Below, in pieces: positions 12,346-48,670 of a stretch of DNA of 48,670 bases. How positions within the stretch are numbered: the first letter of the stretch is position 1; each line of letters begins with the position of its first letter. The stretch is from positions 1 through 48,670 of the IMG/VR virus record IMGVR_UViG_3300046684_000217. The stretch is one strand, 5' to 3'. A program made the translations under genes and the position numbers. The notes below the pieces were generated by a model, which was given only the letters and a program-made list of their open reading frames with translations, was not told the origin of the DNA and did no database searches. The stretch comes from a virus.

Positions 12346-12650
12346 TGTTGGGGTCTTGTGGCCTCTGTAGAGCCATCGGTCGGTGTCGGCGGTGCGGTGG
12401 TCGAGGTGCCGTTCTGCACGGCGGTTGCCTTCTGTTGTTCGGCTACCACCGCTTCTAATCGCGTAATCTCTGCCGTACTCTGGCGGAGTACGGCCACGCC
12501 GTTGTTAATCTGGTACTCGGCTAACTGCTTGGTGAGTCGCTGATTCTCTAACTTCTCCTGCACACAAGCGTCATCGGCTTGTGCCCGTCCTACGGGTACC
12601 CATGCCACGGTTCCCAGTGCCAACAATCCAATCACTAAAAGTCTATACAT
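12342..12650 (-). CDS. Small exported coiled-coil protein
   Basis: 102 aa. A Sec signal of about 23 residues (MYRLLVIGLLALGTVAWVPVGRA) is followed by a coiled coil (ACVQEKLENQRLTKQLAEYQ ... ITRLEAVVAEQQK) and a Thr/Pro-rich tail. No lipobox is visible. It is bracketed by two exported beta-helix genes and shares an ATGA overlap with the downstream one. It could oligomerise or act as a chaperone or linker for its neighbours (inference). Confidence 0.75.
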   Translation of the reverse strand: MYRLLVIGLLALGTVAWVPVGRAQADDACVQEKLENQRLTKQLAEYQINNGVAVLRQSTAEITRLEAVVAEQQKATAVQNGTSTTAPPTPTDGSTEATRPQQ

Positions 12651-12663
12651 ACGTCCTCCTTCT

Positions 12664-14472
12664 CTATTCGAGTTGAATGCGTCCGCTGAGAACGATCTTC
12701 CCGCTCAGTTTCGGAACGCCGAGCGGTGGAGCGATCACCGCTCCAAATTCAATGGCGCCCAGATCCGGAGCCGTACCGGCGAAATAGCCCGGACTCATGC
12801 CAGGAAGCGCGGGCTGACTTGGCCCCCAAGTGGTAGACAAATTGAGGCCCGCATCAATGGTTTCGTAGCCTGCGGCTGGGGTGAAATCGGTCTGGGCATC
12901 CGACCAGATACGAATATTCGTGCGCCACATCATCGGTGCGGTCGTCCAACTCGGGGCCGTGGTCGTATTCCCTGCTCCATTGCCGCTGCCCATCGCGCCG
13001 CCAATCCAGAGACGGCTACCAAAGGCGGGATCTCCCGCCAGCTCCATCACCCAGTTCTTGCCCGGACTCATAATGTTGTTGACAAAAAAGATGTTCTGCA
13101 TGTTCTGGTTGGAATAGGCGAGAATGCCAGAGTCCCGCCCATTACTCGTATTGTGGTAGAAGTAGCCTTTGCCGCCGTTGGGGAAGATGCCCGCCGCAAC
13201 GCTGTTAACCGCCGAGAACTCCAAGTCTCCTCCCCGTGCGCACGCCGCACACCCATCGGGATTGGTCGCGGTATTGCGGTAATAGTAGAAGTTCTCGCCG
13301 CTGGCATTGAGCACCCGGCCAATCCGTGTGGCGTTGTAATAGGTATTGATGCTGTTGTCGTGGAACTGGAAGTTTATGGCTTTGGTATCTTGAATCTGAA
13401 AGCAGTAGTCCTGGCAGTTATTGAACGAATTATAACCAATCTCAGTATTGGCATAGGTATAACTTGGGTCACCCAGATAGTTGGTGGACCAGAGGTAGAT
13501 GCCAGCAGCCCCCGTATGATCGAAGACGTTGTTTAAGACTTTGTTATTGCTGCCTGGATCAATCAAGTAGAACGAACTCGTAATTGGCATGGCGTCCCGC
13601 ATCGCCTGAAACACGTTCTCTTGGGTGACGTTGGCTTGGTTCACTAGCGTATATCTGTGATGGCCGTGGTCCTCATAGATCCAATTCACGAACCAGCGGT
13701 TATTCTGGAAGAGGTTGTCGTGCGCGCCGAACCGGACCCACACCGCATAATAGCCGTTGGTACAGGTCGAATTCTGAAGGGTGACGTGATGGGCTTCCTC
13801 ACCGACAATGAGGCAGCTATAGGCGTTCTTGAAGTAAAACCCATCAAACGTGAGGTAGCCCTTGGTTGCGCCCGAGACCATGAACGCGCCGATGTTCTCG
13901 GGTGCGAGCTTCAAGGGTTTGGTATCGGGGTCAGCATCATCTTGGAACCGGCAGCGGGTGAACGTGCCAAAGTTCTTGCACGCTCCTTCTACTCCCTGCC
14001 ATTCGACCGAGCCGGGAGCTTGCGCCAGATAATCAACCTGCGAGGTGATCCCGGGTCGGACAAAGACAATCATCTGGTCGCCAATGGTCGCATGAGCCGG
14101 GACGTTGCCACTGAAGCCATAGGCACTGTTAGCAATCTCAAAGACGCCATTGGGAAAGCCGCCTGCTTGCGTCCAGCCCGAGGCACTGGTACCGCCATCA
14201 ACAATGCACGCTCTGTTGGTTGTACACAGAAAGGTAATCAGACTGCCCGCACTGCCCGCCCTCCCAAACACCACCCGCTCCTGATAGGTACCCGCAGCCA
14301 CATTGACCAGATCACCGGGATTGACGGTATCGGCGGCCTTCTGAATCGTCCGCCAGGCAGTCCCCGAAGACGTGCCATTGGCGGCATCACTGCCCGTAGT
14401 TGCGACGAAATAGGTCGTCGCGTCCACCGGAGAGACCCACAGCAGCATAAAAATGAGTACTATCCAGCTCAT
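12664..14472 (-). CDS. Exported right-handed beta-helix protein (pectate-lyase-like)
   Basis: 602 aa. The N-terminus is hydrophobic with a plausible cut after VDA (residue 18), though it lacks a basic residue. It is followed by TTYFVATTGSDAANGTSSGT and WRTIQKAADTVNPGDLVNVA, a hallmark opening of DUF1565/beta-helix proteins that bind or cleave polysaccharide. Asn-rich beta-helix coils fill residues about 60-500, with the closing motif PDLGAIEFG near 580. Its start overlaps the preceding stop (ATGA). Polysaccharide lyase or depolymerase activity is possible, but I cannot identify catalytic residues. Confidence 0.8.
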   Translation of the reverse strand: MSWIVLIFMLLWVSPVDATTYFVATTGSDAANGTSSGTAWRTIQKAADTVNPGDLVNVAAGTYQERVVFGRAGSAGSLITFLCTTNRACIVDGGTSASGWTQAGGFPNGVFEIANSAYGFSGNVPAHATIGDQMIVFVRPGITSQVDYLAQAPGSVEWQGVEGACKNFGTFTRCRFQDDADPDTKPLKLAPENIGAFMVSGATKGYLTFDGFYFKNAYSCLIVGEEAHHVTLQNSTCTNGYYAVWVRFGAHDNLFQNNRWFVNWIYEDHGHHRYTLVNQANVTQENVFQAMRDAMPITSSFYLIDPGSNNKVLNNVFDHTGAAGIYLWSTNYLGDPSYTYANTEIGYNSFNNCQDYCFQIQDTKAINFQFHDNSINTYYNATRIGRVLNASGENFYYYRNTATNPDGCAACARGGDLEFSAVNSVAAGIFPNGGKGYFYHNTSNGRDSGILAYSNQNMQNIFFVNNIMSPGKNWVMELAGDPAFGSRLWIGGAMGSGNGAGNTTTAPSWTTAPMMWRTNIRIWSDAQTDFTPAAGYETIDAGLNLSTTWGPSQPALPGMSPGYFAGTAPDLGAIEFGAVIAPPLGVPKLSGKIVLSGRIQLE

Positions 14473-14843
14473 GGGTCAGGGGTTCCTGTCACCGTACCAG
14501 CGGGGAGGCAGCCGTTGGCCTGTGCGTAGTTAAGTGCCCGCTTCTGCAAGCTGTTGGTGGTGAGGTTAGCGGTATTAAGAATCTTACTCAAATTGACGGC
14601 TTCATCTCCCAAGACCGTACAGGTCACGGGTTTGCCGCCTTCCTTGCAGATGACTCCCGGTGTTGTCGAGGGTTCGCAAAAGATCATCCGCACCTCTTTT
14701 CCAGTCCGGGCAATAGAAATCATGTCCAGTTTCCATGACGTGGTAGCCGGATTAGGAATCGGTGTGGTCATGTCTAACTGCTCGTCCGCGTATACCAGCC
14801 CAGCACTCCCAACCAGCAGGAACACCATAAGTAGATGTTTCAT
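14469..14843 (-). CDS. Small exported protein with four cysteines, unknown
   Basis: 124 aa. A Sec signal of 19 residues (MKHLLMVFLLVGSAGLVYA) precedes the mature part. The mature protein carries Cys in IFCEPS, VICKEG, VTCTVL and NGCLPA, an even number compatible with disulfide bonds in the periplasm. No domain is recognised. It overlaps both neighbours by four bases (ATGA), so it is translated with the FN3 and beta-helix genes. Confidence 0.75.
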   Translation of the reverse strand: MKHLLMVFLLVGSAGLVYADEQLDMTTPIPNPATTSWKLDMISIARTGKEVRMIFCEPSTTPGVICKEGGKPVTCTVLGDEAVNLSKILNTANLTTNSLQKRALNYAQANGCLPAGTVTGTPDP

Positions 14844-15241
14844 TCTTTTGCTTCTCCTTTCGTGCCGCTGGTCACGTCAACTGTCACCTTGATGTTGAGA
14901 TCACCCGGTGCTTGCAGCGGCGGCAGCGGCACCGGCATGTCAACGCAGACCTCGTTGCTGGGACCACTGCGTTCCGCTCCGCGTGCGGCGAGCACCCGAT
15001 AACACCACGTACTGCCGCCCTCTGCGGTCGTGTCTGTCCATGTCGTCACGTTGGCTGCGGTACTGGCACGTTCATAAAACGTCCCGGTCGCACCGTGGCG
15101 GCGCTCAACCTTGAACCCGTCCTCGGTCACGGAGTTGTCGGTCCAGGTGAGATCCACCACCCCGGCCCATCCCACCAGAGGCACCGCCCATGCCCCAACA
15201 CAGGGCACCAGCAACAGCAACGTCATCTTCCAGAGTTTCAT
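14840..15241 (-). CDS. Exported fibronectin type III protein
   Basis: 133 aa. A signal peptide of about 20-26 residues (MKLWKMTLLLLVPCVGAWA) is followed by one FN3 domain: VDLTWTDNSVTEDGFKVERR, then TTWTDTTAEGGSTWCYRVLA and GPSNEVCV. The C-terminal ~30 residues are Pro-rich and then charged. FN3 modules usually mediate binding or spacing in secreted carbohydrate-active proteins. Here the domain is free-standing. It is coupled to the next gene by an ATGA overlap. Confidence 0.8.
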   Translation of the reverse strand: MKLWKMTLLLLVPCVGAWAVPLVGWAGVVDLTWTDNSVTEDGFKVERRHGATGTFYERASTAANVTTWTDTTAEGGSTWCYRVLAARGAERSGPSNEVCVDMPVPLPPLQAPGDLNIKVTVDVTSGTKGEAKE

Positions 15242-15252
15242 TCCTTCTCCTT

Positions 15253-17541
15253 TTATTGCAGCATGATTGGTCTGCGGAGTGCTCGTAACCCACTCGGGGC
15301 CGCTGGTGCCGGGTTAATCGCTACCACCGTCTCCCGCCAGGCACTGGTTGCGGCTCCGGTTGCGGTCCACGTCAGTGGTTTGGGAGTCCCGTTGGCATCG
15401 GCAAACTGCGCCGCCAGGGTTCGGGTGTTGGTATACAGATTGTTTTGCGTGGAGAGGCCGGTCTGGTTTGCCGTGAAGGTCGTACTGCCGCCCAACGCAG
15501 CCCACACAATACCCAAGAGCGAACCCCCAGTCGTACCGGTTGCGGTCAGGGTCGCAGGCATCGTCGTGCCGATCGCGCCGGTGAAGGTATCCGGCGTGAC
15601 CTGATTGACGCCGCTGTAGGGCAAGCACATGAGGGCGATCTCTGCCGACGAACTCCCCAACGTCACGGTCAGCGTATTGACGCCGGTGGGGGGAGCGACC
15701 AATCGGTAGATGTACAAACCCAGCGTCGATAAGGTTGTTTGCGACGTGACCAGCGTGAGCGGCACGCCATTATAGGTGACACTACTCACGGCAGACGTGC
15801 GCTGGCCGATCGCAGCATATAACACCCGGTTCGTGTCAGTGCCTGCGTCACAGCTCACCGATGCAGTAGTGCCAGTGCCAGAGACGAACGCAGCCGGTCC
15901 AGGTTCTGCGATAGGAGAAGAGGAGGTGACGAGGGTAGGTTTGACGGGAAGTGCTGTCAGCGCAAAGCCACGGGCATTGCCCCATGACCAGCCCATCGTT
16001 GTTATCCCTGCTTCGCTCGTCGCTTTGTAGGAATCACGAAACTGGGTGGTGCCAGTCGTCGTAAACTGAATGAGGGTTTGCCCGGCATCGGGGACAACAG
16101 TCTCAACGTGGCTGCTCTTGGCAATGAGATCAAGCACGAGTCCACCGGCATCACTGGTGACGTTGACCGATCCAGAGATTTGTCCCACCGTCGAACTACT
16201 ACAGCCAGGCTCGCCAAAGGGCGTTGTCTGATTCACGTTGTGCAACGAAATCGGCACGAGCCACACAGTACCCGAACCGTTCGTCGTCCAGACCAGATTC
16301 TGTGCCCCGCCTGCTGGATTGAGAAGATAATAAAAAGCGGTATAGCGAGAGCCGGTCTGCAAGCATTCCGAGTCGGCAATCTTGGTCATTGCCACGCCAT
16401 TGTAGGTCAGCGTGGCTAACCCCGCGCCTGCTGAATAGGCATGCCCAACCGCCACCACTAACGCATCACTGGGTCCGTCCGTATGATTGTAAGAGAAGGT
16501 ACCACCGGCAGTCACCGTGGTGTTGGCACTGCCAATATAGCTGACCGCGCCTTCGACTGGAGGTATGGGATCAACAGGAGCGGTGCCGCCTGGCGCAACC
16601 ACCTTGTAACAGGAGGTTGCATCGCTAATAGGAACGGAACCCGAACAGCCTACTTCATCTGCGATCTTTATCTCATCATACAGCACTGTGTACTTGTCAC
16701 CGGCGTTCGCTGGCGCAAGGCCCTTCCAGTCAGCCGCATATGTTCCCCACTTAAAGATTTGTGGGTTGACGTCGTTATAGGTGGTAGGTCCAGTAAAGTT
16801 GACCTTAAGAACACCATCGACCCAAATCTTGAGAAACCCCCCTTGCCCAGCCGCATAGACCCACTTGGCCGCAACAACGACGTCATGCCAGGTGTTTTTA
16901 TCGAACTCGCCCAGCGTGTAACGGTTCCGCACCCACTGGCTATCAATCGTACATGCGCGTGCATCAGACGTGGTGTACACGTCCCACTTATCCTTGGTCG
17001 AAACACTGCCTGCCTTGCGTTCCATTCCCAAATGCGGCGATTTGTTGATGTCGCAGGCATCTTTAAAGGTATGCCATTGCAGCATCCCCGGCCCCCGGTT
17101 GACGTTAGCATTGGAATCCACGGTATTCGTGCCGTCAACATAGATGCTCATGCCGTACCACCGCGTCTGACCGACACTCGCCGTCCCCTGAATTTCAAAC
17201 TCGGTCCGGGCAATGTCCCCCATCGGCTGACCAGCAGCAGTCGGGGCGTAGAAATCTCCATAGATCCAGCCCGTCACCGTCTGCGGTAAGAAGGTCTTCA
17301 CCGCGCGTGCGCCAACGCGCGGGGTAGGACTGCCGGTAATGATACTGATGTACGATGATCCGGCGACCGACTGAAAGTTCGACGGACATTTCTCGGTCGG
17401 CGTATGGAGCGAGGCAGGACATACGGTTGTATTACCATAGGTGTTGTCATCATAGGTTGCGGAATAGAGGATGGTCGCTCCGGTCCGCACCGGCAGGAGC
17501 AGCACACACACGACGAGCAGAAAGATTCGGATACGGTACAT
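15253..17541 (-). CDS. Exported polysaccharide lyase-like protein with two beta modules
   Basis: 762 aa. A Sec signal of about 22 residues (MYRIRIFLLVVCVLLLPVRTGA) is followed by a jelly-roll domain at about 25-300 with marks of the PF14099 polysaccharide lyase group: ARTEFE at 111, RWYGMSIYVDG at 127, MLQWHTFKD at 153, WHDVVVAAKWV at 218, GGFLKIWVDG at 234 and FKWGTYA at 263. Two ~110-aa beta modules follow (VTYNGVxxT... SGVNQVTP types), as in phage fibres and secreted adhesins. Lyase action on an acidic polysaccharide is inferred from fold marks; the substrate is unknown. Confidence 0.8.
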   Translation of the reverse strand: MYRIRIFLLVVCVLLLPVRTGATILYSATYDDNTYGNTTVCPASLHTPTEKCPSNFQSVAGSSYISIITGSPTPRVGARAVKTFLPQTVTGWIYGDFYAPTAAGQPMGDIARTEFEIQGTASVGQTRWYGMSIYVDGTNTVDSNANVNRGPGMLQWHTFKDACDINKSPHLGMERKAGSVSTKDKWDVYTTSDARACTIDSQWVRNRYTLGEFDKNTWHDVVVAAKWVYAAGQGGFLKIWVDGVLKVNFTGPTTYNDVNPQIFKWGTYAADWKGLAPANAGDKYTVLYDEIKIADEVGCSGSVPISDATSCYKVVAPGGTAPVDPIPPVEGAVSYIGSANTTVTAGGTFSYNHTDGPSDALVVAVGHAYSAGAGLATLTYNGVAMTKIADSECLQTGSRYTAFYYLLNPAGGAQNLVWTTNGSGTVWLVPISLHNVNQTTPFGEPGCSSSTVGQISGSVNVTSDAGGLVLDLIAKSSHVETVVPDAGQTLIQFTTTGTTQFRDSYKATSEAGITTMGWSWGNARGFALTALPVKPTLVTSSSPIAEPGPAAFVSGTGTTASVSCDAGTDTNRVLYAAIGQRTSAVSSVTYNGVPLTLVTSQTTLSTLGLYIYRLVAPPTGVNTLTVTLGSSSAEIALMCLPYSGVNQVTPDTFTGAIGTTMPATLTATGTTGGSLLGIVWAALGGSTTFTANQTGLSTQNNLYTNTRTLAAQFADANGTPKPLTWTATGAATSAWRETVVAINPAPAAPSGLRALRRPIMLQ

Positions 17542-17556
17542 ATCTCACACTCTATG

Positions 17557-20500
17557 TTACTGGACTCTGCGGAAGGTAAACTCGGCCCCAATGAACCGAA
17601 CCTTGCCCACCAAATCGTCTACGACCCCACCGGTATCATCGACATTGCGGCACATACGGATGTGGAGCAGTCGGCCAGCGGCAACCCCGGTCGCGGTCAC
17701 GGCGGGATCGTCCGCATAGTTGAGTTGCAAAGACGTGGGTTTGGTTGTGTCGGCTATACAATTGCCCGAGGCTTGGGCTGGGAACGCAACATCGTCTACC
17801 TCGCCATCGCCATTGCTGATGAGCTGGGAGCAGAAGGCGACGTTGCCGCTAATCACCGGAGAGTACCAGACATACCGAACATCAAGGGGAAGGGCGAAAT
17901 CTGCCGGTAACATGATTGTCGTTTGCAGACAGGATTCCGGCGTCTGTTCAAAATCAGCGACGCCCTTCTGCACACCTAGTGAATCCGGAGCACAGACCGC
18001 AGTCGGAACATTAGTGGCTTCCACGTCCCACAACAGATTGGCAACCCCAGCCTGACAGCTTGCTGCCGGTAGCCATACCTTACTCGTGGTCGTCAGCACG
18101 TTGGTCGCATCGGTCGCATCAATCGTTTTGTTGGTGAGGGTGGAGGGGGTATCAACAAACTCAATCTCTCCGGCAGTTCCATTGTTACAGCCTTTGAGCG
18201 CGGTCTCGGACGTATCGGCAAAGACGCTGTAGCTACCTGCTGTACAGGTCTTCGTATCATTCGGGGTTAAATCCACACCGCCAATTACAGCCGGTGAAGT
18301 CAAGGTTAATACCGTACCGTTCCACGTCGCCGCACCCACACCGCCAAAGACGCCGCTGTTGTTATACTGAAGTTGCGTCGTACTACCGGCTGGCGTCCCA
18401 CCACTGCCGAATGTATCCAAGGCACTAATGGTTCCGTTCTGGCACTTCTTCCACTGGGTTTCACTGGAGTTGGCGCGAATCCAGTATTCACCCGTGTTAC
18501 AGGTGCCATCGGTTCCCGTTGCCACTCCCGTCAGCCGTGGGACTTCGAGCCCACTTGGCAGCCAGCGGCCAGATTGCACGAAGGTACCGTTCGATACCAC
18601 ATTTGCTACTAACGCCGCTGAACGCGTGGCATGCGTTGCATCGGTCCACACCGCATCCATGCGAGCAGCATCCTGGTTAGCGGTCGAACTCGAATTGAGT
18701 TGATAGAGCAGACTGCTACCTAATCCAGCCGCCGGTGTTCCCGTACTCTGTCGCCGGATGGTGAGCCCGGTGCCAACCGTCGTTGTTCCGCCATCACGAA
18801 AGCCGGTAATGAGCGGCGCGTTCTGACCTGCCGTCGCGGTACGCACTTCCAACACATTCGCAGACACGCGGCTCAGACCAACGTCTGGAGAGTTCTCTGG
18901 AAAGCTGATCGACGAGACATTCACACCGCTGCTCACGACCTTTACTTTCCACACGCCGCCGCTGCCAAGGTTGGTTGATGTGGGACCATTCAGGTAGAGG
19001 TCGGCACCGTCACCAGCGATTCCGTAGTTTGTCGCCGTTGGTGTCCCCGGACCGAAATACACCGATCCATACGTCGGGGTGCCAATAAGTGTACCGATAC
19101 GGAGGAGGTTAGTCGTCGCAAAGTTCTGGATGGTCAAGGTATTAGGAATATCGGCAGTTGGCGGCGTGAGCGTTACCGGCGCAGTCACCGTTCCACCACC
19201 ACCACCTCCGCCAATCACTTGAAAGGTTCCACCCGAACAGCCAAGCCACATCGCTGAGACAGCGGCATCGGTATCAAGGAAGGTCTCACCAGTCGTGCAA
19301 CTACCGGGAGGAGTCGTCCCAAACTTACTCGGTTTGGTGATTGCCGCTGAGCCAAAATCTACCGTTGTGGCTGGCTCAGCAGTAAAGACACCGGCCTCAG
19401 TCACCTTGAGAAGATCCGCTCCACCCGACTGTTCGACAATCCAATTCTTGGTCGAGGGAATCGTCATCACCATGTCACTCGTCGGAACGGTCTCGGTCAC
19501 CCAGGTGCTGTTACCAGTGTCATAATAGCGGCGCTGATAGATCGTGCAGGTGGTATCGCCACAGAGATAAAAGGCTTTTGTCGGACTGGTCAGATCCATG
19601 ATCCGCCAGCCATTGGCACCCACAGTAATCGACGGCGTTGTCCCACCAAGATTATAGGCGTTCTGGATGTTCGGCGTGGGATTGAGCAGAATCATATCGG
19701 TGCCGTCATAGGCGAGTCCCATCCACATCTCGTCTTGCACGTCACCGGTCACGAGCGGCGTCTTCACGTCATTGACGATCTTCACAATCGCTTTAGGCCC
19801 GGCAATGCTATTGAGTTGCAACGTAGCGGGTCCCGTATTCGGTGTCCCGGCTTTGATGACATAGCGCGTGTTGTTGGCATAGGCGGTGATTGCGGGCGTC
19901 ATGGTACAGGCGTAGCTATCGTTGCCGGTTGCACTCACGCAGCCCGTGGCGGCGGAGATCCCATCGACATCACCCGCGCCACTCCCAGCCCCGGTCAAAT
20001 CACTGCCGCAACTCCATAAGGTGTTACTACCCGAGGTTCCCGTACTCTTTAAGACAAGCCCGGTTCCACACGTTAGACCAGCGACTGTTGTTAAATCGGG
20101 ATCAATGGGTTGATAATCAGAGAGCGTGATACCGGTATTGGGAATGTCAGCATCGGTAATCGCCGCCATCGTCGCAGTAGTGATTCCTGCGGTAGACGAG
20201 ACCTTGAGCACACCGGTCCCTGGAACAGAAGGCATGACAAAATTATACGGTGTAGTCACCGTTGCCGGTGCATGAATCTGCAGGGTGGTTGCCGCAGCCG
20301 CACTCGGTGCGATTCCTGCGGTCAGTGTGAGCACTCCGGCATTACTACTGCCCGCACCTGATGCGAGTGTTCCTGCGGTACTGATGTTGCCACTGTCATC
20401 AATGATAACGCTGGAGTTCTGAATCAGTTTGCCGGTGGTGCTATCGAAACGAGCAATAGCATTATCGGTTGCGCTTGCTGGACCGCCCACATCACCCGCG

Positions 20501-21717
20501 CCGACGCCACCACTGTCAGCCGCGCAGACCCAGTTACCACTGGACTTCTTCATGATCTGCGTATCGGCACACACCAACCCGGCAATCTGGCTCAGATCCG
20601 GGTCCTGTTGCTGCTTCTCGGTCTCAATTTCGGCCATCATCGCTTGTACATTGGGACTACTCAGCCCACCCGTGGTGGTCGTGGTAATTTGCGCGGCTGT
20701 ATAATCACCACTTGCGGGAACCACGGCTCCTGTTCGGGTGTTAAACGACAACACGCCCACAGTATCCGTACTACAGACCCAGGTGGTGCCTGACTTCTTG
20801 ATAATTTGCTGGTCGGTACAGGCGAGCCCGGCGATCTGGGTAAGGTCGGAATCACCGATTTGCCGTTCGGTGCCCAATTCATCAAGCTGGGCTTGGACGG
20901 TCGTCCCAGCAATGGCGTTGGGAACCGAAGGAACCGCACTCACCTGACCGGCTTGCACCTGGGTACAGGTCAACGAACCATCCGAGGCGGTATCCGAAAC
21001 ATAGGTACCCGCTGGGCAAGGATTGGGATTCGCTATGAGCGGTTGTTTGCCGGTATCGAGTTGGTTGATCGCCGCTTGTACGTCGGTCGCCGTCACCGAC
21101 ACACCCGGAACATTGACGATCTGGGTCGCCGTGTAATCCCCGCTTGCCGAGACCACCGTGCCGCTGCGGGTATTGAAGGTTGCCACGCCAACGGTATCAA
21201 CGTCACTGCCACAGACCCAGGCACTGCCATTCCATTTATGAATTTGGTTAGTGGTACACACCAGTCCCGCAAGTTGGGTGAGGTCGGTATCGAGCGGCTG
21301 GAACTCGGCCACGATCTCAGTCAGTACGGCTTGCAGATTGGTACTGCCGATGGTTCCGGTTGCGGTATTGGTAATCTGGGTAGCGGTATAATCGCCGGTT
21401 GCTGGGCTCACCACACCGGAACGGGTATTCCACGTCGTGACGCCTGCTGACGCACTTGCTGAACCTAAGAGCCAATCACCGGCAATATCACACTTAGTAG
21501 GATCAACCCCCAAGTTCGGTGCAGTTTTACAGGTATAGATATTGCCGTTGTTTTGCTGGACGCAGGCCTCCAACGGACTGGCGACAAACCCGGCATTGGG
21601 ACAATCGGTTGGATGCGAGTAACGGACTCCGCCCCCTCCGCCACCACCACCCCCAACCCATCCCGCTTGTGCTGACGATGCCAGCACCGCGAGCACCACC
21701 CCCAGAATGTACTTCAT
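17557..21717 (-). CDS. 1,386-aa fibre-like protein with N-terminal signal peptide
   Basis: Residues 1-18 form a textbook Sec signal (MKYILGVVLAVLASSAQA), followed by a run of nine glycines. Phage-fibre repeats come next: NTRSG-x-V-x5-GDYTA-x-QI at about 97, 181 and 326, and DLTQIAGLxC-type units ending in WVC at about 145, 290, 373 and 540. The middle and C-terminal parts are Thr/Gly/Ser-rich beta structure, with a compact Cys-containing C-terminus. The repeats are those of tail fibres and adhesins, yet such fibres normally lack an export signal. It is the largest gene of the signal-peptide block. It may be a secreted adhesin, or a fibre using its hydrophobic N-terminus for attachment. Confidence 0.8.
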   Translation of the reverse strand: MKYILGVVLAVLASSAQAGWVGGGGGGGGGVRYSHPTDCPNAGFVASPLEACVQQNNGNIYTCKTAPNLGVDPTKCDIAGDWLLGSASASAGVTTWNTRSGVVSPATGDYTATQITNTATGTIGSTNLQAVLTEIVAEFQPLDTDLTQLAGLVCTTNQIHKWNGSAWVCGSDVDTVGVATFNTRSGTVVSASGDYTATQIVNVPGVSVTATDVQAAINQLDTGKQPLIANPNPCPAGTYVSDTASDGSLTCTQVQAGQVSAVPSVPNAIAGTTVQAQLDELGTERQIGDSDLTQIAGLACTDQQIIKKSGTTWVCSTDTVGVLSFNTRTGAVVPASGDYTAAQITTTTTGGLSSPNVQAMMAEIETEKQQQDPDLSQIAGLVCADTQIMKKSSGNWVCAADSGGVGAGDVGGPASATDNAIARFDSTTGKLIQNSSVIIDDSGNISTAGTLASGAGSSNAGVLTLTAGIAPSAAAATTLQIHAPATVTTPYNFVMPSVPGTGVLKVSSTAGITTATMAAITDADIPNTGITLSDYQPIDPDLTTVAGLTCGTGLVLKSTGTSGSNTLWSCGSDLTGAGSGAGDVDGISAATGCVSATGNDSYACTMTPAITAYANNTRYVIKAGTPNTGPATLQLNSIAGPKAIVKIVNDVKTPLVTGDVQDEMWMGLAYDGTDMILLNPTPNIQNAYNLGGTTPSITVGANGWRIMDLTSPTKAFYLCGDTTCTIYQRRYYDTGNSTWVTETVPTSDMVMTIPSTKNWIVEQSGGADLLKVTEAGVFTAEPATTVDFGSAAITKPSKFGTTPPGSCTTGETFLDTDAAVSAMWLGCSGGTFQVIGGGGGGGTVTAPVTLTPPTADIPNTLTIQNFATTNLLRIGTLIGTPTYGSVYFGPGTPTATNYGIAGDGADLYLNGPTSTNLGSGGVWKVKVVSSGVNVSSISFPENSPDVGLSRVSANVLEVRTATAGQNAPLITGFRDGGTTTVGTGLTIRRQSTGTPAAGLGSSLLYQLNSSSTANQDAARMDAVWTDATHATRSAALVANVVSNGTFVQSGRWLPSGLEVPRLTGVATGTDGTCNTGEYWIRANSSETQWKKCQNGTISALDTFGSGGTPAGSTTQLQYNNSGVFGGVGAATWNGTVLTLTSPAVIGGVDLTPNDTKTCTAGSYSVFADTSETALKGCNNGTAGEIEFVDTPSTLTNKTIDATDATNVLTTTSKVWLPAASCQAGVANLLWDVEATNVPTAVCAPDSLGVQKGVADFEQTPESCLQTTIMLPADFALPLDVRYVWYSPVISGNVAFCSQLISNGDGEVDDVAFPAQASGNCIADTTKPTSLQLNYADDPAVTATGVAAGRLLHIRMCRNVDDTGGVVDDLVGKVRFIGAEFTFRRVQ

Positions 21718-21721
21718 AATG

Positions 21722-22054
21722 TCACTCGAATCCTACATAGAGGAGTCCAGAATCAATGCGCTGCACGCTGAGACCGGCATTACTAGAGAACCCCAACGGC
21801 AATTCGTATTCCGTTGCCCCGCTCGGTGCGGTGGTTTCAAAGAGTTTTCTGCCGTCACGATCAACGAGAATGAGTTTGTGACCCGCCGTCGTCACGTTGA
21901 CCCAGCGCATACTGCTGACATGGATTTGTCCGGTCACAATCGGCGTGGGTGTTGCCGTATCAATCAACCACGGCGTGCGTTGGATATTGTTAGCGGCAAA
22001 ACTCACCGTTGAGACGATGAGAAGACTCACCAGTCCAAGAATGAGACGAACCAT
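21722..22054 (-). CDS. Small exported protein, first of the signal-peptide block
   Basis: 110 aa. A Sec signal of about 20 residues (MVRLILGLVSLLIVSTVSFA) is followed by a small beta-rich domain (WVNVTTAGHKLILVDRDGRKLFE). No cysteine pair or catalytic motif is visible. It lies between the small capsid-region gene and the 1,386-aa fibre-like gene. I do not recognise a family. Confidence 0.75.
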   Translation of the reverse strand: MVRLILGLVSLLIVSTVSFAANNIQRTPWLIDTATPTPIVTGQIHVSSMRWVNVTTAGHKLILVDRDGRKLFETTAPSGATEYELPLGFSSNAGLSVQRIDSGLLYVGFE

Positions 22055-41651: not shown

Positions 41652-42053
41652 GTGAGTGAGGAGTGGTATCAAACGGCCTTGTTCAAGGTCCGTAGGAAGG
41701 TTCCGAAGAAGCTTACTCAGAAGCTAGAAACGCTTGGTCCTGAAGATTATTTGGCCGAGCAACTCGACGTACGCGAGATCCCGTACGAACGACAGTTTAA
41801 GTTTAATCCGAGACGCCAGGTGAGAGCCGATTTTCTCATCAAAGGCACCCGTCTGCTCGTGGAAGTCGATGGCGGGACGTGGATGAAAGAGAAGAAAGCG
41901 CACAACAGCGGCGAGGGATACGAGTATGACCGTGTGCGTGATGCTGAAGCGCTCCTGCTTGGCTATGTGGTGCTGCGTGTCGTCCCTCGTCAGGTCAATA
42001 GTTATCAGGCGTTGCAATGGATTCAACAACTCATGCTCATGACCAAAGAGTAA
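41652..42053 (+). CDS. Vsr/DUF559-like PD-(D/E)XK endonuclease
   Basis: 133 aa from a GTG. The pattern YERQFKF (E46), VRADF (D60), LLVEVDGG (E71, D73) and W-x8-H followed by GEGYEYDRVRDAEALLLGY and VVLRV is that of the Vsr/DUF559 fold. The active site would be E46, D60, E71. It probably cuts or resolves branched or nicked DNA in the replication module. It is distinct from the Cas4-like gene. Confidence 0.75.
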   Translation: MSEEWYQTALFKVRRKVPKKLTQKLETLGPEDYLAEQLDVREIPYERQFKFNPRRQVRADFLIKGTRLLVEVDGGTWMKEKKAHNSGEGYEYDRVRDAEALLLGYVVLRVVPRQVNSYQALQWIQQLMLMTKE

Positions 42054-42076
42054 ATTTTCTGGGGGAGGATTTGCCT

Positions 42077-43327
42077 ATGCAAGTAATCGATTGGGAAGAC
42101 TGGGTGCCACCATCTGGCTTTCTCAACAGATACATTCAGTGGACCGCCAACCATGAGGGGCCTTTGCGATTCCAGTTCTGGACCGCACTCACGGTCTTAA
42201 GTGCTGCCGTGGGCCGCCGCTACTACATTAGTAAGGGGTTCTACAATGTGTTCCCTAATCTTTACACGCTTCTCATTGCCCCCTCGGGTAGATGTAGAAA
42301 GACCCGCACTAGTTCTATTGGCATCTCCCTCTTGGAAAAGCTCGACGTGCGGCAAATGAGTACGAAATTTACGCCCGAAGATTTGATTAGTCGCTTGGAA
42401 TCTATCGAGGTCAGCGGCACCAGGATTATCAAACGCGCCGAAGGCTTCCTCTATGCTTCTGAACTCACCGTCATGCTCGGTAAACAACGCTACAACGAAG
42501 GTATGATCGACCTGCTCACTGACTTTGCCGACGCTCCCAACTACTGGTCCTATTCCACCAAAGGCGGTGGCAAGATCGAACTCAATAATGTCTGTATCGT
42601 TATGCTTGGGTGCTCGACGATGGATCTCCTCGGCGATGCGATCCCACAGAAAGGCTTCGGTGGTGGCTTCCTTGCTCGTATCATCCTCATCGTCCAGCAA
42701 CAAACGCAACGCTCCTTCGCTATTCCCAAAGAGCAAGACAAGACCATCAAACGCGAGCTTGCTGACTTCTTGGCGCGTATTCGGAAACGCTCAGGTCAAT
42801 TCACCTTCTCTCCGGATGGCCTGCGCTGGTACGAAGACTGGTATCACTCCTGCCGTGACATCGATAATGATCTCCGTCTCAATGGCTACTTCGAACGCAA
42901 ACCGGATCACTTACTGAGAGTCGCTATGCTCTTGGCGCTGGCTGAGGAGGTCGATCTGATCCTTACTCCCGATCTCTTGCAGCGGGCCGAACGTATCTTA
43001 AATGCGGTCGAGCCGCACATGCCCGAGGCACTGCGTGAGATCAATACCAGTATGAGCGGCAAAGAATCCAACCGCGTGATGGATATGATTCGTTCCAAGA
43101 AAGCAGACGGCCTTGATTATGAGACCCTCATGTCCGGCACGATCCAGTACATGGCTCCCAAAGCAGTCGATGAAGCCATCCGTGGGCTCAGACTGGCGGG
43201 GAAGATTGATGAGGTGATTACCCCGCAAGGCCGCAAGTATACCGAGAGGAATGGCGTGCCCTATACCAATGGCAATGGGCACGCGTCTGTGGAAGACAAC
43301 GAACTACTCACAATGAGGGAGGACTGA
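42077..43327 (+). CDS. DUF3987-type replication ATPase/helicase-like protein
   Basis: 416 aa. The start at 42077 (MQVIDWEDWV) has GGGGGAGGA upstream; the longer reading from 42017 overlaps the nuclease gene. Features: NLYTLLIAPSGRCRKT with a P-loop variant APSGRCRKT at 68-76, FLYASELTVMLGKQ (E129), DAPNYWSYSTKGG, IVMLGCST (174-181) and FGGGFLARI with a likely Arg finger R201. Such DUF3987 proteins replace DnaB-type or primase-helicase functions in phages and plasmids. The P-loop lacks the usual G before K, as seen in this group. The last 80 residues may be a winged-helix end. Confidence 0.75.
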   Translation: MQVIDWEDWVPPSGFLNRYIQWTANHEGPLRFQFWTALTVLSAAVGRRYYISKGFYNVFPNLYTLLIAPSGRCRKTRTSSIGISLLEKLDVRQMSTKFTPEDLISRLESIEVSGTRIIKRAEGFLYASELTVMLGKQRYNEGMIDLLTDFADAPNYWSYSTKGGGKIELNNVCIVMLGCSTMDLLGDAIPQKGFGGGFLARIILIVQQQTQRSFAIPKEQDKTIKRELADFLARIRKRSGQFTFSPDGLRWYEDWYHSCRDIDNDLRLNGYFERKPDHLLRVAMLLALAEEVDLILTPDLLQRAERILNAVEPHMPEALREINTSMSGKESNRVMDMIRSKKADGLDYETLMSGTIQYMAPKAVDEAIRGLRLAGKIDEVITPQGRKYTERNGVPYTNGNGHASVEDNELLTMRED

Positions 43328-43329
43328 AT

Positions 43330-43647
43330 ATGGTGCGTCAGTGGGATGAAGCCGCTCGTCTGCGTGGGTATGTCAGCCTGAAAGCCTTGCTCATTCAGAA
43401 GTACGTTCTGGAAGGACGCGGGTCGGGCTGGCTTGCTGTGTGGCTAGGAAACTCACGTTGGACCGTAATAAAGTGCCTCAAACGCTACAACATTCCGGTT
43501 CGTGGGCCGGGTCTGTTCTACTTGTCGCCGACCGAACGCGATCACTGGAACATCGTGCTCAAACGCGAGATTGCATACCGGGAACTGCGCTCGCGTCCGC
43601 TGATTCCGGCACCAACAAGAAAGGAAATATCTCTGGAAAGGAGGTGA
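43330..43647 (+). CDS. HTH DNA-binding-like protein
   Basis: 105 aa, directly after the ATPase gene. A homeodomain-like HTH is seen in WLAVWLGNSRWTVIKCLKRYNIP, preceded by GYVSLKALLIQKYVLEG. Basic throughout, with Arg-rich C-terminus. A transcription or replication-initiation factor is inferred. It may be the activator of the late promoter, but nothing proves that. Confidence 0.65.
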   Translation: MVRQWDEAARLRGYVSLKALLIQKYVLEGRGSGWLAVWLGNSRWTVIKCLKRYNIPVRGPGLFYLSPTERDHWNIVLKREIAYRELRSRPLIPAPTRKEISLERR

Positions 43648-43742
43648 TGTGTAAAATAGGAAAGGCGTCACGCAAGCGTGGTGAGGGGCCAGAGGAAAAC
43701 CCCTCATCACAAAACACCAACCACAAGGAGAGGTCAGTATAG
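43647..43742 (+). CDS. 31-aa basic micro-ORF
   Basis: ATG overlaps the previous stop (TGATG) behind AAAGGAGG, which is very strong but only two bases from the ATG. Codes for MCKIGKASRKRGEGPEENPS and a polar end. Its codons also hold the hairpin 43682-43706 and the AACACCAACCACAAGGAG leader. It may be a leader peptide or not translated. Confidence 0.3.
   Translation: MCKIGKASRKRGEGPEENPSSQNTNHKERSV
43682..43706 (+). terminator. Intergenic hairpin before the secreted-protein genes
   Basis: TGAGGGG / CCCCTCA with an 11-base loop. A second small stem (CACGC-AA-GCGTG) lies at 43667-43678. No T tract. May separate replication genes from the three end genes of the operon. Confidence 0.4.
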
Positions 43743-43775
43743 CAAGCCTCTCTGTTACTGAAAAGGATTACCCAA

Positions 43776-44102
43776 GTGAAAAAGTTTGCCTTTGCATTGT
43801 TTGTTTCTGGTCTGCTGTTCTCTGGCTCTGCTCATGCCGCCTGCCTCAATAACAACGTGGCAAAAATTTCGGTCTATAGCCAAACGCCGTGCGGGGCGGG
43901 AGTCTGCGTCCAGTTCGATACCTACGATCTAGATAACTTGAGCAAACGCGGCGTGAAAATCTATCGCGGCAGCATGCTGCTCTACAACTCTGCGCAGAGT
44001 TTCTTTACCGGTCAATTGTTCCGTGGTGATCTGGTGGTAGCCCCAAACGTCAACACCTGTGGTGAGATCGTCACCCAGCAACGTGTCTTACAGATTCAGT
44101 AG
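43776..44102 (+). CDS. Small exported protein
   Basis: 108 aa from a GTG. A classic Sec signal of 21 residues (MKKFAFALFVSGLLFSGSAHA) and mature part starting ACLNNN, with Cys in CLNN, TPCGAGVCVQ and NTCGE: four cysteines that may form two disulfides. Beta-rich. It is unusual among phage early genes to encode an exported protein. Possible role: surface modification or superinfection exclusion (inference). Confidence 0.75.
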   Translation: MKKFAFALFVSGLLFSGSAHAACLNNNVAKISVYSQTPCGAGVCVQFDTYDLDNLSKRGVKIYRGSMLLYNSAQSFFTGQLFRGDLVVAPNVNTCGEIVTQQRVLQIQ

Positions 44103-44105
44103 AGT

Positions 44106-44297
44106 ATGAAACGCTACACGATCTGGGATGGTCCGTTCTCAGCTCGGGTGCCGGTGGGCGTCACGCCCACCGTTATCTATACCAAAGCCAAGTGGCCGCG
44201 CGGTGCTGTGGCCTATGCCTTTGGTAAGGTCTACCGAGCGACCCATTATCGCAAACGAAAAACCGTGTTCACTCGCGTAGTTATCAGCGAATTATAA
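44106..44297 (+). CDS. 63-aa basic beta-rich protein
   Basis: Starts three bases after the previous stop. Basic and beta-rich (RYTIWDGPFSARVPVGVTPTVIY, VFTRVVISEL), without signal peptide. It sits between the two secreted-protein genes; no ribosome site is clear. Unrecognised. Confidence 0.55.
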   Translation: MKRYTIWDGPFSARVPVGVTPTVIYTKAKWPRGAVAYAFGKVYRATHYRKRKTVFTRVVISEL

Positions 44298-44327
44298 AAT
44301 AACAAAGGAGCAGTGTAGAATAGAGCA

Positions 44328-45002
44328 ATGAAGACAATACAATCGTTGGTTATTGGTGTCTGTGCATTACTTATGGGAGGGTTGGCATCAGCCGACCCAA
44401 CCACCATTTACTTTACTGGCACCACCGGCGTCTGTCGCTCGGTGCCCTGCAATGAACTTGATGTTGGGATTCTGCCCGGTCGCCCCTTCACCGGTCACTT
44501 TAGCTATGATGCCTTCACTGCCTTTCCCAATGATTGGGGCGGATTTGCCGGTGATGTCGAGAACTTTGTGGTCGAGTTCGAGAACATTACCTTTACCGCC
44601 AATGAGGCCGAGCTACGGGTCCAACCCTTTAATGGCGAACGCCAGTTCGTCGCCGTGGTGGGGGAAATCCCCGGTGGTTTCATGACCATTGGGGTAACCT
44701 CTACGGAGTTGCCAGCTCGTACCGATCTCTTGAATCCAACCGGCATTACCTGGGATTGCTTGCTATGGGGAGTCTGTGGCTTCCAAATCAGGATTCACGA
44801 CGCGCCCTTCTCGAACTATACGTTGCAGTATCCGACTGCGGTCTCTGCCTTCTATTCGCCGGTCGATGGTAGCAATGGCTCGCTGCAATTCGTGCCTGCT
44901 CCTGCTGCTCTGAGAAAGACTACCGGGAAACAACGGGGCGTACTGAAGAAGGAACTGCTCACGGATAAGAAAGTCGGGTGCTTCTGCTTGCCCCCTTCCT
45001 AA
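44328..45002 (+). CDS. Exported beta-rich protein, PEP-CTERM-like without anchor
   Basis: 224 aa. Sec signal of about 22 residues (MKTIQSLVIGVCALLMGGLASA), then TTIYFTGTTG and beta-rich sequence with GHFSYDA, AFPNDWGGFAG, NFVVEFENIT and two Cys-rich spots. Near the end LQFVPAPAALRK resembles the start of a PEP-CTERM signal (VPEPA) but the TM helix is missing and replaced by a Lys/Arg/Cys tail. It may derive from a host extracellular-matrix protein. AAAGGAG lies about 18 bases upstream. The stop overlaps the stop of the opposite ejection gene. Confidence 0.7.
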   Translation: MKTIQSLVIGVCALLMGGLASADPTTIYFTGTTGVCRSVPCNELDVGILPGRPFTGHFSYDAFTAFPNDWGGFAGDVENFVVEFENITFTANEAELRVQPFNGERQFVAVVGEIPGGFMTIGVTSTELPARTDLLNPTGITWDCLLWGVCGFQIRIHDAPFSNYTLQYPTAVSAFYSPVDGSNGSLQFVPAPAALRKTTGKQRGVLKKELLTDKKVGCFCLPPS

Positions 45003-48000
45003 CGTCCGCCTAACCGCTTCTTCTCTTCTTTGGTCGGCGGGACGTTTAACACCGCCCGCCCGACGCCCGCTAAATCTTGCGCCGTCATCATCCGGTAGAT
45101 GTCCTTCCCCATTCCCGCCCCTGGAATGTTGCCCTCAAGTGCTTTCTCCACATGACCGAGCATTGATTGGTGACTGAAGCCAGTCATGATCTTGGGCACC
45201 TCTAACCACCAGTTGAATCGTGGCCCGCCTGAGACAATCATCGGCTGAAAGAACACGTAGTTACCCATCTCCGCCCCAAGGATGGCTGCGGCACTGCCTT
45301 TGACCAGTGCGTTGGCCGCAAACCACCTCGTTGCGTGTGCGATGCGTTGCGCGTTGGTTCGTGTTCCTCCGGTGAAAATGTCCCTGAACTGCTGAATATA
45401 GGAGAGGGGAAAAGTGGCGTACTGGCCGACGAATCGGCCAGCTACGGAGTGCAGTGCCGGTGGGCGGTTGGGCATGTCATAGAGGTACTGAGTCTTGGCT
45501 ACGCTCTTGCGGATCGCCACGTTAATAGCTTCCTCGGTCTCGCCGTTATCGATCAAGGTTTTGATCTGTTGTTGTTCCTGCCAGTTGAAGTGGTCGATCT
45601 TGGTATCAGCAGCAAACTGTTTCCACAGTGGGCTGAAGATGCCGGGCGGTTCTGGGATGTCCGGGGCAATAGGAACTTCGGGCGGTGGTGGTGGTGTACG
45701 ATTGGGAATCATCACCGGTTGCATGTCGGCATCTTCCATTGCCTGGATAGCAAGCGGCTTCTTACTGTAGGGCACCTCGGTGCGGATGGATTCAACGAAG
45801 CCCTCGGCCTCGCGTTGTTCCTTCAGCATCATCACTCGCTGTCGCAAGCCGGGTCCCTTTGGTCCGGGCTTGGCTCCTGGTCCACCTGCCCGCTTGAGTC
45901 CCATCGCGACGTTGGCAACGTGGCCGTTAGGTACGCCGGGTTCCGCTACCGTGGCGTGCTCCGCTCCGCTCTTGGTTCTGATGTAGCCGGTTACCGTTCC
46001 TTTGACTGGCCGCAGTCCGCCTGCTTCCGCTGCCTCAAACGTGACTTCGGTTCCCATCGGGAATTGTTTCTGGAAGGTGGGCGAGACCGTGCCGTAGTTC
46101 TTGGGCATCGCGTGCGTGTTGGTAATGGTGGGAGGTGGTTTTGCTGCTGGTGCTCTCTGTATGGGTCGCATCGCCACGCCGCCTGCTCGTATCCCTGGCG
46201 GCATCATCGGCCCGGTGAAAGGAGGCGGAGCTGGAGGACCAATGGGAGGAGGCATGGCTTGCGCGGGCATTACTCCCCGTGGTGCGACTTTCGGAGCTTT
46301 CGCCTGGTAGCCGGGTAGATATCTGCGCATGAGGTTGAGTTGCGCCGAGCCTGGCACCAAGCGGTTAAAGTTGTCGGCCCAACTCAGTCCTTTGCCGCTC
46401 CATTGCAGCCAGTCAGCCATAGGTCCCGCGTCTGCCTCGGTCATAATCGGCGTATCAAGGAGCGCTCCGGCCTCGGCAATGCGTTGGCGTTGGGCTTGCC
46501 CGCCCTTGCCGAAGAGAGAGTTGATTGCGCGTGTAGTCTCTGGCCCGCCGAAATGCGGGTAGGTGCTCTGCACCAGTTGCAACCATTGTTTGCCAATCGC
46601 GCTGAGCCGGAAGCCAAAGTGCGCGGCGTAATTGGAGGCGTACATGGCCCCGTAGACTTTCTTGCCTAATTGCGTGACTTGATGCGGGGGAATGTCGGAG
46701 CCAACGCTGAGCTTTTGCATGGTCACACCGAGCCAGCGCATCGCCATCTCGTCGCTGTGATCGCCCCACCCTTTCACACTTCTCAGGTAGTGCTCCAGAT
46801 AGGTGTGTTGCTGTTGGCGCTGCATCGCCAAGGTCTCCCACGAGCTGCGAGCATTGGCCGGTAACGGTTGCGTCATCAACTCATCGGCAATCTGGACCGC
46901 TTCTCTCCACGCTTTGCCTGCTTTGATGGTGAAGCCGCCCTGTGAGAAGAAGGAGCGTGCCAACACTTCAATGTCATGCTCGGTTCCTTCGGCAAATGGC
47001 ACGTTGCCAAAGTTGACATCATCTGCCCAGAACGCCGCTTCTTTGGGCAGGTGGCCCGATGGAAAGGCTTTCTCTAGACTCCCGGTCTCGCGTACCCGAG
47101 GGATGATCTGAGTGAGGAGCTTGTTGCCATCGATACCGAACTCTTCACTGCCTCTGAGGAACAAGCTGCGGAACTGTTCGGCCTTCTGGGGGTCGAGTTT
47201 GTATTCTCTGATGAGATCGTTCCAGCCTGAGCTGCCGGGTTCCTCGGCCATCAGATGGACGTAGCCCTCGCGCTTGCTGCCGGGTCCGTGTTTGCCGATG
47301 CCTTTCACAAGTTGGGTGATCTCATCCTGGTAGGGTTGATTGAAGGCGCGGAACTCTGTGTAGGCCCGCTCCATCGGAATCACCACACGGGTGTGGAGCG
47401 GTGCGCCGAGCCTCGCTTCTACGTCCTTCAGTCTGACGGTCTGTGGTTGCAGACTGCTGGTGAAGTATTGCAAGACCGTCTGCCAGTTAGGAGTAACAGA
47501 AAGGTTCCCGACCATCGCATCATGGTTGACCACCTCTGCCGTGAGATAAAATCCGTTCTTGCCCTGCACCAAGAGGTCTTTGTAGGCCGCATCTTCAATG
47601 CGGTTGCTGCTGAGCGGATAGTCGTTGACAAATTGTCGGACCTCCTTTGCCGTCGTGAATCGTTTCTTGAAGTCCGCTCCTATCACACTGAACTCTTTGC
47701 CGACCCGTGTGACTCGCAACCCCTTGGCCGCTCGTCCATCCACCACCCGAATGCCCATGCCGAACTGCTCGAAGATGGCGTTCACTTTGTTCTGCGGTCC
47801 CTCGATGCTCGCGATCTCTCGGAGTGCAGCGCTCTCGCCGAACTGGAGCGGTGGCGGTTCGCCCTTGGCTGTGGCCTCAATGGCGTCCTTCAGTGCTTTG
47901 GGAAAGGTGCCCTCGTCGGCAATCTGACCATTGTTCATGGTGATTGTCAGCTTTGTTGTTTTGGGATTGATGACAACGGCGGGCGTGTGTTTCAGAATCG

Positions 48001-48670
48001 CTTCGTTGACCTCGTGGTTGACTGAGGTATTGTTGGCTGCCGCCGCCAGTTCCAACTCACGAATCTTGCCTGTGGGAATCTCACCCGTAGTGAACAATTC
48101 TCTGACCGCTTGTGAGGCTCCCTGGGTGATCTCTTTCACTCCCTCTGGTGCAACCCCGGAGAGTCTGTTGCGTGCCCATCTCCCCACGGCAAGCGAACCG
48201 ACACCTAACCCGACGAGTCCACCGAACGCTACTGCCACGCCCTTACCGATGATGTAGGCACGCAGCACGTTCTGCTCGGCTTGGCCGATCTGTGACTGTG
48301 GCGTGTAGCTTAAGATATGCTGGCCCGATTTGATCGTGTCACTCACCGAGTGATAGATTGGTTTCCCTTCTTGCTCCGCCTGATTGACACCTCTGAGTGC
48401 TTCCATTGCCAGCGGTGCGCCGACCGGTCCCAGTGCCGGAGTCAGTGCCATATCGGCAATGGTTCTTCCCACACCCTCAGAGAAGCCACGTTCGCCGACC
48501 ACACCCCGCACTGAGGCTTCTTGCTCTGGCGTGAGGATGCTCGGCTGTGCGCCCAAGGCCATGCTGCCGAGTTGCGCGGCTTGCGTGGTTGCACCTAACG
48601 TTTCGCCTGCTGCCGCTGCACTAAAGGCGTTGCCAAACACGCCTGCGGTCATCTCAAGAGCACGCTGCAC
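44999..48670 (-). CDS. Giant virion/ejection-type protein, C-terminal part
   Basis: Continuation of the gene that starts at 1146; residues about 338-1560 of the circular ORF. Visible features are a Gly/Ala-rich hydrophobic stretch at about 465-500 (IIGKGVAVAFGGLVGLGVGS), which could insert in a membrane; a long helical middle; a proline-rich linker (PPPIGPPAPPPFTGPMMPPG) at about 1130-1180; and a C-terminal region with another hydrophobic stretch (NALVKGSAAAILGAEMGNYVF). This organisation resembles large internal virion or polyvalent phage proteins. The TAG stop overlaps by three bases the TAA of the rightward operon's last gene, so the two operons converge with no terminator between them. 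Confidence 0.8.
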   Translation of the reverse strand: MQRALEMTAGVFGNAFSAAAAGETLGATTQAAQLGSMALGAQPSILTPEQEASVRGVVGERGFSEGVGRTIADMALTPALGPVGAPLAMEALRGVNQAEQEGKPIYHSVSDTIKSGQHILSYTPQSQIGQAEQNVLRAYIIGKGVAVAFGGLVGLGVGSLAVGRWARNRLSGVAPEGVKEITQGASQAVRELFTTGEIPTGKIRELELAAAANNTSVNHEVNEAILKHTPAVVINPKTTKLTITMNNGQIADEGTFPKALKDAIEATAKGEPPPLQFGESAALREIASIEGPQNKVNAIFEQFGMGIRVVDGRAAKGLRVTRVGKEFSVIGADFKKRFTTAKEVRQFVNDYPLSSNRIEDAAYKDLLVQGKNGFYLTAEVVNHDAMVGNLSVTPNWQTVLQYFTSSLQPQTVRLKDVEARLGAPLHTRVVIPMERAYTEFRAFNQPYQDEITQLVKGIGKHGPGSKREGYVHLMAEEPGSSGWNDLIREYKLDPQKAEQFRSLFLRGSEEFGIDGNKLLTQIIPRVRETGSLEKAFPSGHLPKEAAFWADDVNFGNVPFAEGTEHDIEVLARSFFSQGGFTIKAGKAWREAVQIADELMTQPLPANARSSWETLAMQRQQQHTYLEHYLRSVKGWGDHSDEMAMRWLGVTMQKLSVGSDIPPHQVTQLGKKVYGAMYASNYAAHFGFRLSAIGKQWLQLVQSTYPHFGGPETTRAINSLFGKGGQAQRQRIAEAGALLDTPIMTEADAGPMADWLQWSGKGLSWADNFNRLVPGSAQLNLMRRYLPGYQAKAPKVAPRGVMPAQAMPPPIGPPAPPPFTGPMMPPGIRAGGVAMRPIQRAPAAKPPPTITNTHAMPKNYGTVSPTFQKQFPMGTEVTFEAAEAGGLRPVKGTVTGYIRTKSGAEHATVAEPGVPNGHVANVAMGLKRAGGPGAKPGPKGPGLRQRVMMLKEQREAEGFVESIRTEVPYSKKPLAIQAMEDADMQPVMIPNRTPPPPPEVPIAPDIPEPPGIFSPLWKQFAADTKIDHFNWQEQQQIKTLIDNGETEEAINVAIRKSVAKTQYLYDMPNRPPALHSVAGRFVGQYATFPLSYIQQFRDIFTGGTRTNAQRIAHATRWFAANALVKGSAAAILGAEMGNYVFFQPMIVSGGPRFNWWLEVPKIMTGFSHQSMLGHVEKALEGNIPGAGMGKDIYRMMTAQDLAGVGRAVLNVPPTKEEKKRLGGR
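48536..48670. repeat. Terminal overlap, right copy
   Basis: Second copy of bases 1-135, with 134/135 identity. The single difference falls in the third base of an Arg codon (CGT here, CGC at the left end) of the ejection-protein gene, so it is silent. It looks like population variation collapsed differently at the two contig ends. Confidence 0.95.

Follow-up and report, generated by a model that had tools for sequence, protein, structure and literature searches.

A probable PEP-CTERM-type protein encoded by a phage, with an export signal and without a membrane anchor

Exosortase sorting is known from bacteria. According to passages of two papers, PEP-CTERM proteins cross the inner membrane by Sec, are held in it by their C-terminal domain until exosortase processing, and then move outward and help to tie exopolysaccharide to the cell (PMC12188702, PMC9850573). 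The 224-aa phage protein described here has in common with such exosortase-sorted proteins (TIGR02595, PF07589; VPLPA-CTERM TIGR03370) a Sec signal, a VPxPA-kind motif at the same place and a variable body, rich in beta structure and of fitting length, that is homologous to anchored members. Unlike them, it has neither helix nor anchor, matches no sorting-domain model and is carried by a phage. PepA-like matrix PEP-CTERM proteins, as treated in part of PMC9850573, are the source of the functional analogy drawn below. Against the model of the flocculation protein PepA (NF033554), some of the bacterial relatives and of the viral PEP-CTERM proteins score weakly, all of them below the 80-bit cut-off, and the 224-aa protein has no match. 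Among the titles and abstract openings of open-licence PMC papers we found none on phage-encoded PEP-CTERM proteins; passages of PMC12642866 discuss PEP-CTERM for host genes.

The window, i.e. the whole stretch of DNA analysed, is a virus record of 48,670 bases (GC 54.6%) in which no terminal repeats were found. Its plus strand carries early genes (exonuclease, Sak4-like, DUF3987 primase), and its minus strand mainly late genes (terminase, portal, head protein). Parts of the window recur at 99.9–100% identity in four other IMG/VR contigs, none of which was found to cover the stretch with the 108-aa and 224-aa genes. The first-pass annotation had placed two exported proteins with clean Sec signals at the end of the early operon, and the gene order bears this out, with the primase followed by a 105-aa ORF, the gene group and then the convergent 1223-aa ORF:

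42017–43327 (+), DUF3987-type primase, the landmark of the slot (family matches)
43330–43647 (+), 105-aa ORF after the primase (weak matches only)
43648–45002 (+), probable accessory cassette from the early operon to the convergent late genes (missing at the matching place in the closest relative phage)
43776–44102 (+), 108-aa Sec-signal protein with a four-cysteine mature part (ORF, GTG start)
44106–44297 (+), 63-aa basic ORF without a signal, between the 108-aa and 224-aa ORFs
44328–45002 (+), 224-aa exported protein with a PEP-CTERM-type body and no anchor (ORF; profiles A1, hb and sel; alignment A3)
44328–44393 (+), its Sec-type signal peptide, residues 1–22 (sequence, hydropathy test)
44892–44912 (+), VPAPAAL, start of the PEP-CTERM-type sorting motif, residues 189–195 of 224 (sequence)
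44913–44999 (+), basic tail of 29 residues where helix and anchor would stand (no helix; codon score, K/R content)
44999–48670 (-), convergent 1223-aa late gene, open at the window end (homologue in the closest relative phage)

Both exported proteins are present as ORFs, and both pass the simple n/h/c signal-peptide (hydropathy) test that was used for the window ORFs in place of SignalP. The 108-aa ORF has the N-terminus MKKFAFALFVSGLLFSGSAHA-A; no relatives were found for it in family libraries or by sequence searches, and no tie to PEP-CTERM was seen. The 63-aa ORF has a codon score that resembles those of the phage's genes. It also contains a GC-rich 9-pair hairpin (44152–44172, +) with a weak T stretch after it; terminator-like matches in the hairpin region are about as numerous as in shuffles.

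The closest relative phage found is the contig IMGVR_UViG_3300045120_000583 (L350; 49,699 bases), with a primase 55% identical to that of the window and several early genes 25–38% identical. In L350, a 97-aa ORF comes next after the primase and convergent late genes begin immediately behind it, one of them homologous to the 1223-aa gene; no exported gene lies in between, and the stretch 43648–45002 therefore looks like an accessory cassette. Directly 5' of the primase the window has a 133-aa ORF (41652–42053, +), also present in L350, which matches DUF559 above the Pfam cut-off; we take this domain to have a very-short-patch-repair-like nuclease fold.

The 224-aa ORF starts with ATG and has the N-terminus MKTIQSLVIGVCALLMGGLASA-D, a signal of the Sec type found in PEP-CTERM proteins that would be cut after ASA. 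Its C-terminus reads NGSLQF-VPAPAAL-RKTTGKQRGVLKKELLTDKKVGCFCLPPS (the tail begins RKTTGKQ) and includes a sorting motif of the PxP kind. The initial observation that VPAPAALRK stands near the end with no transmembrane helix behind it holds: within its last 50 residues, hydropathy over 17 residues peaks at 0.48, compared with 1.49–2.49 in 37 anchored relatives. The tail has eight K/R among its 29 residues, with no helix before them and not at the very end of the protein. Since the other two forward frames and the reverse strand likewise contain no hydrophobic helix with basic residues after the motif, a simple frameshift does not account for the loss of the anchor, and a frameshift hiding the helix was ruled out. 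A single-sequence fold prediction of the protein was unusable (mean pLDDT 28.5).

Pfam, NCBIfam and PHROG models gave no match to the 224-aa protein, TIGR02595 and PF07589 included. Searches with the single protein found no relative in viral contigs, genome contigs or plasmids, and the sole match among phage records was to cyanophage S-RIM2 records at E 0.5. Genome searches gave matches in 3 of 25, 2 of 399 and 1 of 245 genomes; those at L083–L087 were rejected as chance from the alignment or ORF list (internal stops, unrelated genes, short stretches), and the one at L082 was dropped on score only. Regular-expression searches within VPAPAAL loci found nothing.

Profiles reached further. Profile A1 consists of eight stretches of real gammaproteobacterial proteins, drawn from matches in 8 of 369 genomes to a consensus that was typed after seeing the 224-aa protein, with that protein itself left out. 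It scores the 224-aa protein at 23.9 bits, against 6.6 bits for the best of 2000 shuffles (of the body only, with the signal kept) and 3.6 bits for the next-best window ORF. The mature body alone, after removal of signal, motif and tail, reaches 20.9 bits with a profile of 37 host bodies, all of which match A1 too, while none of 5000 shuffles scores above 14.2. With profiles A1, hb and sel alike, the likeness to a Nitrospirota-rich PEP-CTERM group exceeds that of shuffled controls. Identity to any one relative is about 20–30%, and the alignment extends over the full length up to the motif, where VPAPAAL falls on the relatives' VPLPAAV/VPEPS motif. Because an independent PEP-CTERM profile scores so far above shuffles, these comparisons indicate that the body is a distant member of the bacterial group beyond chance, in agreement with the original description of the protein as PEP-CTERM-like and anchorless.

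The same early reading had asked for homologues with a TM/Arg end in PEP-CTERM bacteria and had named a lack of anchored homologues as refuting it; such homologues exist. Profile A2 (four A1 stretches plus the 224-aa protein) was run on genome groups defined as the order or phylum named after a centre genome. It matched most commonly in genomes of the Nitrospirota, the phylum around a Nitrospira sp. genome (24 of 188), and further in the phyla of an Acidobacteria genome (2 of 189) and a Phycisphaerae genome (3 of 189) and in the order of a Rhodocyclaceae genome (1 of 379). This last match (L097) resembles an Rhs-type repeat protein; with it set aside as a false relative, 43 distinct bacterial relatives remain, 37 of which have motif, hydrophobic helix and basic end. 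Six relatives fall outside these 37, namely L121, L124, L091, L125, L128 and L129, of which L121 and L124 are apparently cut by the locus or contig end. In 71 bacterial DNA stretches chosen by VPAPAAL and hydrophobic spacing, VPAPAAL lies within the last 34 residues of 69 of 74 ORFs (a few of the 69 being spurious and short), mostly with a helix and arginines next. These ORFs indicate that VPAPAAL is a genuine start of sorting signals in bacteria.

PEP-CTERM-like ends also occur in viral contigs, where a DNA pattern of VPEP plus hydrophobic residues found at least 120 stretches (L230–L349); VPAPAAL and VPLPAA-type patterns found nothing there. Among the matches listed, 117 of 125 motif ORFs have at least 60 aa and the motif within the last 45 residues, nearly all of the 117 with helix and basic residues after it, and the viral PEP-CTERM ORFs form 56 clusters. 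The largest comprises 38 ORFs, in which, among the matches listed, a C-terminal GGxLxxRGQxE-type stretch often precedes VPEP. A PHROG scan of one large ORF per locus gave terminases, head proteins and a portal family among its commonest matches (94 of the at least 120 loci), with no match for the one member shown (L230). Genes in common with the window phage were seen in L344 (head protein, portal), L346 (terminase) and L318 (primase), and the body profile hb matched only L278 among the viral PEP-CTERM ORFs listed. Single contigs among these loci may be host DNA. Two of the viral PEP-CTERM proteins had no match among 50,697 deposited phage records.

The nearest parallels are the anchored PEP-CTERM proteins encoded at L318:7540–8292 (-) and L280:8190–8867 (-), which like the 224-aa protein are exported and phage-encoded; unlike it, they have an intact anchor, score above the TIGR02595 cut-off and belong to other body types. 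L318, a more distant relative of the window phage than L350, encodes a 250-aa exported PEP-CTERM protein (TIGR02595 21.8 bits, cut-off 16) behind its DNA polymerase and primase; the gene stands directly after the DUF3987 primase and faces an opposite-strand gene, as in the window. By pattern, a PEP-CTERM-type ORF is present in one of 27 primase-bearing loci (L318, with which L374 is identical in sequence), so the slot sometimes, though not usually, takes such a gene.

How the anchor came to be missing can be read in several ways. The main rival to our reading is a decaying passenger: a gene formerly anchored like its counterparts in related phages and bacteria would have lost its anchor through deletion or recombination at the operon junction, leaving a functionless ORF. 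The break coincides exactly with the expected start of the helix, the stop of the 224-aa gene is shared with the end of the convergent gene (the two stops overlap by 4 nt), and the tail is unusual in comparison with 924 windows of 29 codons from ten phage genes, 44 of which equal or undercut its codon score while only two have eight or more K/R. We nevertheless consider decay unlikely, given that the remaining 195 codons form an open frame with a phage-gene-like score (0.225; other frames -0.43 and -0.65), that signal and body are intact, and that a Shine-Dalgarno-like AAGGAG stands upstream of the gene.

A misassembly that cost the gene its real 3' end with the helix would likewise place the break exactly at the motif, in a stretch that the near-identical contigs do not cover. 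Against it, the ORF extends into the convergent gene so that the two stops overlap, a compact layout that is also seen in L350, and other stretches of the window agree with the independent contigs at 99.9–100%; we regard such an artefact as very unlikely. It is also highly improbable that the protein is some other exported beta-sheet protein that has no PEP-CTERM kinship and carries VPAPAAL by chance: the lack of library models and single-sequence relatives and the low identity would suit this explanation, but the independent profile score stands far above shuffles and every other window ORF, and the full-length alignment puts the motif where it is expected.

We are confident that the 224-aa protein has a PEP-CTERM-family body without an anchor, and it is probably soluble after export; for body, missing anchor and soluble export taken jointly, we estimate a probability of about 0.6. 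Read from its sequence, the gene most likely encodes a captured matrix-type protein, presumably of host origin, that is exported and left soluble, with a role that we infer by analogy. The gene still encodes the Sec signal, all of the body and the seven residues that open the sorting motif; helix and basic cluster are missing, and a short tail that looks unlike the phage's other coding DNA stands in their stead. Early in infection, the protein would cross the inner membrane by Sec and be neither held in the membrane nor passed to exosortase; being cut off just before the membrane-holding piece, it is probably set free, and without a helix it should leave the membrane at once to become soluble in the periplasm or the surroundings. 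There it may bind whatever matrix polysaccharide or surface partner the host's anchored proteins bind, either masking it (against superinfection) or loosening the matrix. That the protein interferes with matrix or surface is a tentative suggestion.

Eight late genes on the minus strand between 9724 and 22054, tail-like proteins included, also have signal-peptide-like starts, which is unusual for virion or tail genes:

9724–12345 (-), signal-like late gene
12342–12650 (-), signal-like late gene
12664–14472 (-), signal-like late gene
14469–14843 (-), signal-like late gene
14840–15241 (-), signal-like late gene
15253–17541 (-), signal-like late gene for a 762-aa protein (Pfam Polysacc_lyase PF14099, E 1.5e-21; PHROG minor-tail matches)
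17557–21717 (-), signal-like late gene
21722–22054 (-), signal-like late gene

A soluble matrix-type protein beside a predicted polysaccharide lyase would fit interference with the host coat. In a wider and rather doubtful extension, exported PEP-CTERM proteins taking the host's exosortase route would be frequent in phages of biofilm or floc formers, and the present phage would side-step that route with a soluble decoy of a matrix anchor which, in an exported set with the predicted lyase, loosens or masks the exopolysaccharide coat.

As to the host, 100 genome fragments were fetched, 22 were dropped as too short and 78 were compared by zero-order-corrected tetranucleotides. Family-positive Nitrospirota genomes provide the five nearest fragments and 8 of the nearest 10, a result that serves as a lead rather than assigning the host, because only five groups were compared (Nitrospirota, Burkholderiales, other Gammaproteobacteria, Acidobacteriota and Planctomycetota). 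Since the relatives are commonest in Nitrospirota and these genomes are also nearest in tetranucleotides, an exosortase-bearing host resembling Nitrospira is plausible but unproven; the spread of the family and the tetranucleotide match both raise the likelihood of an exosortase in the host. Viruses of soil Nitrospira are known from metagenomes, as stated in part of PMC11849493, the main text of which does not mention PEP-CTERM.

As the protein is anchored in relatives and anchorless here, the effect of release is directly testable. If PEP-CTERM proteins, tagged or tag-less, are indeed shipped by phages, they may remodel or mask the polysaccharide coat of the hosts, and the tag would point to exosortase-bearing hosts.
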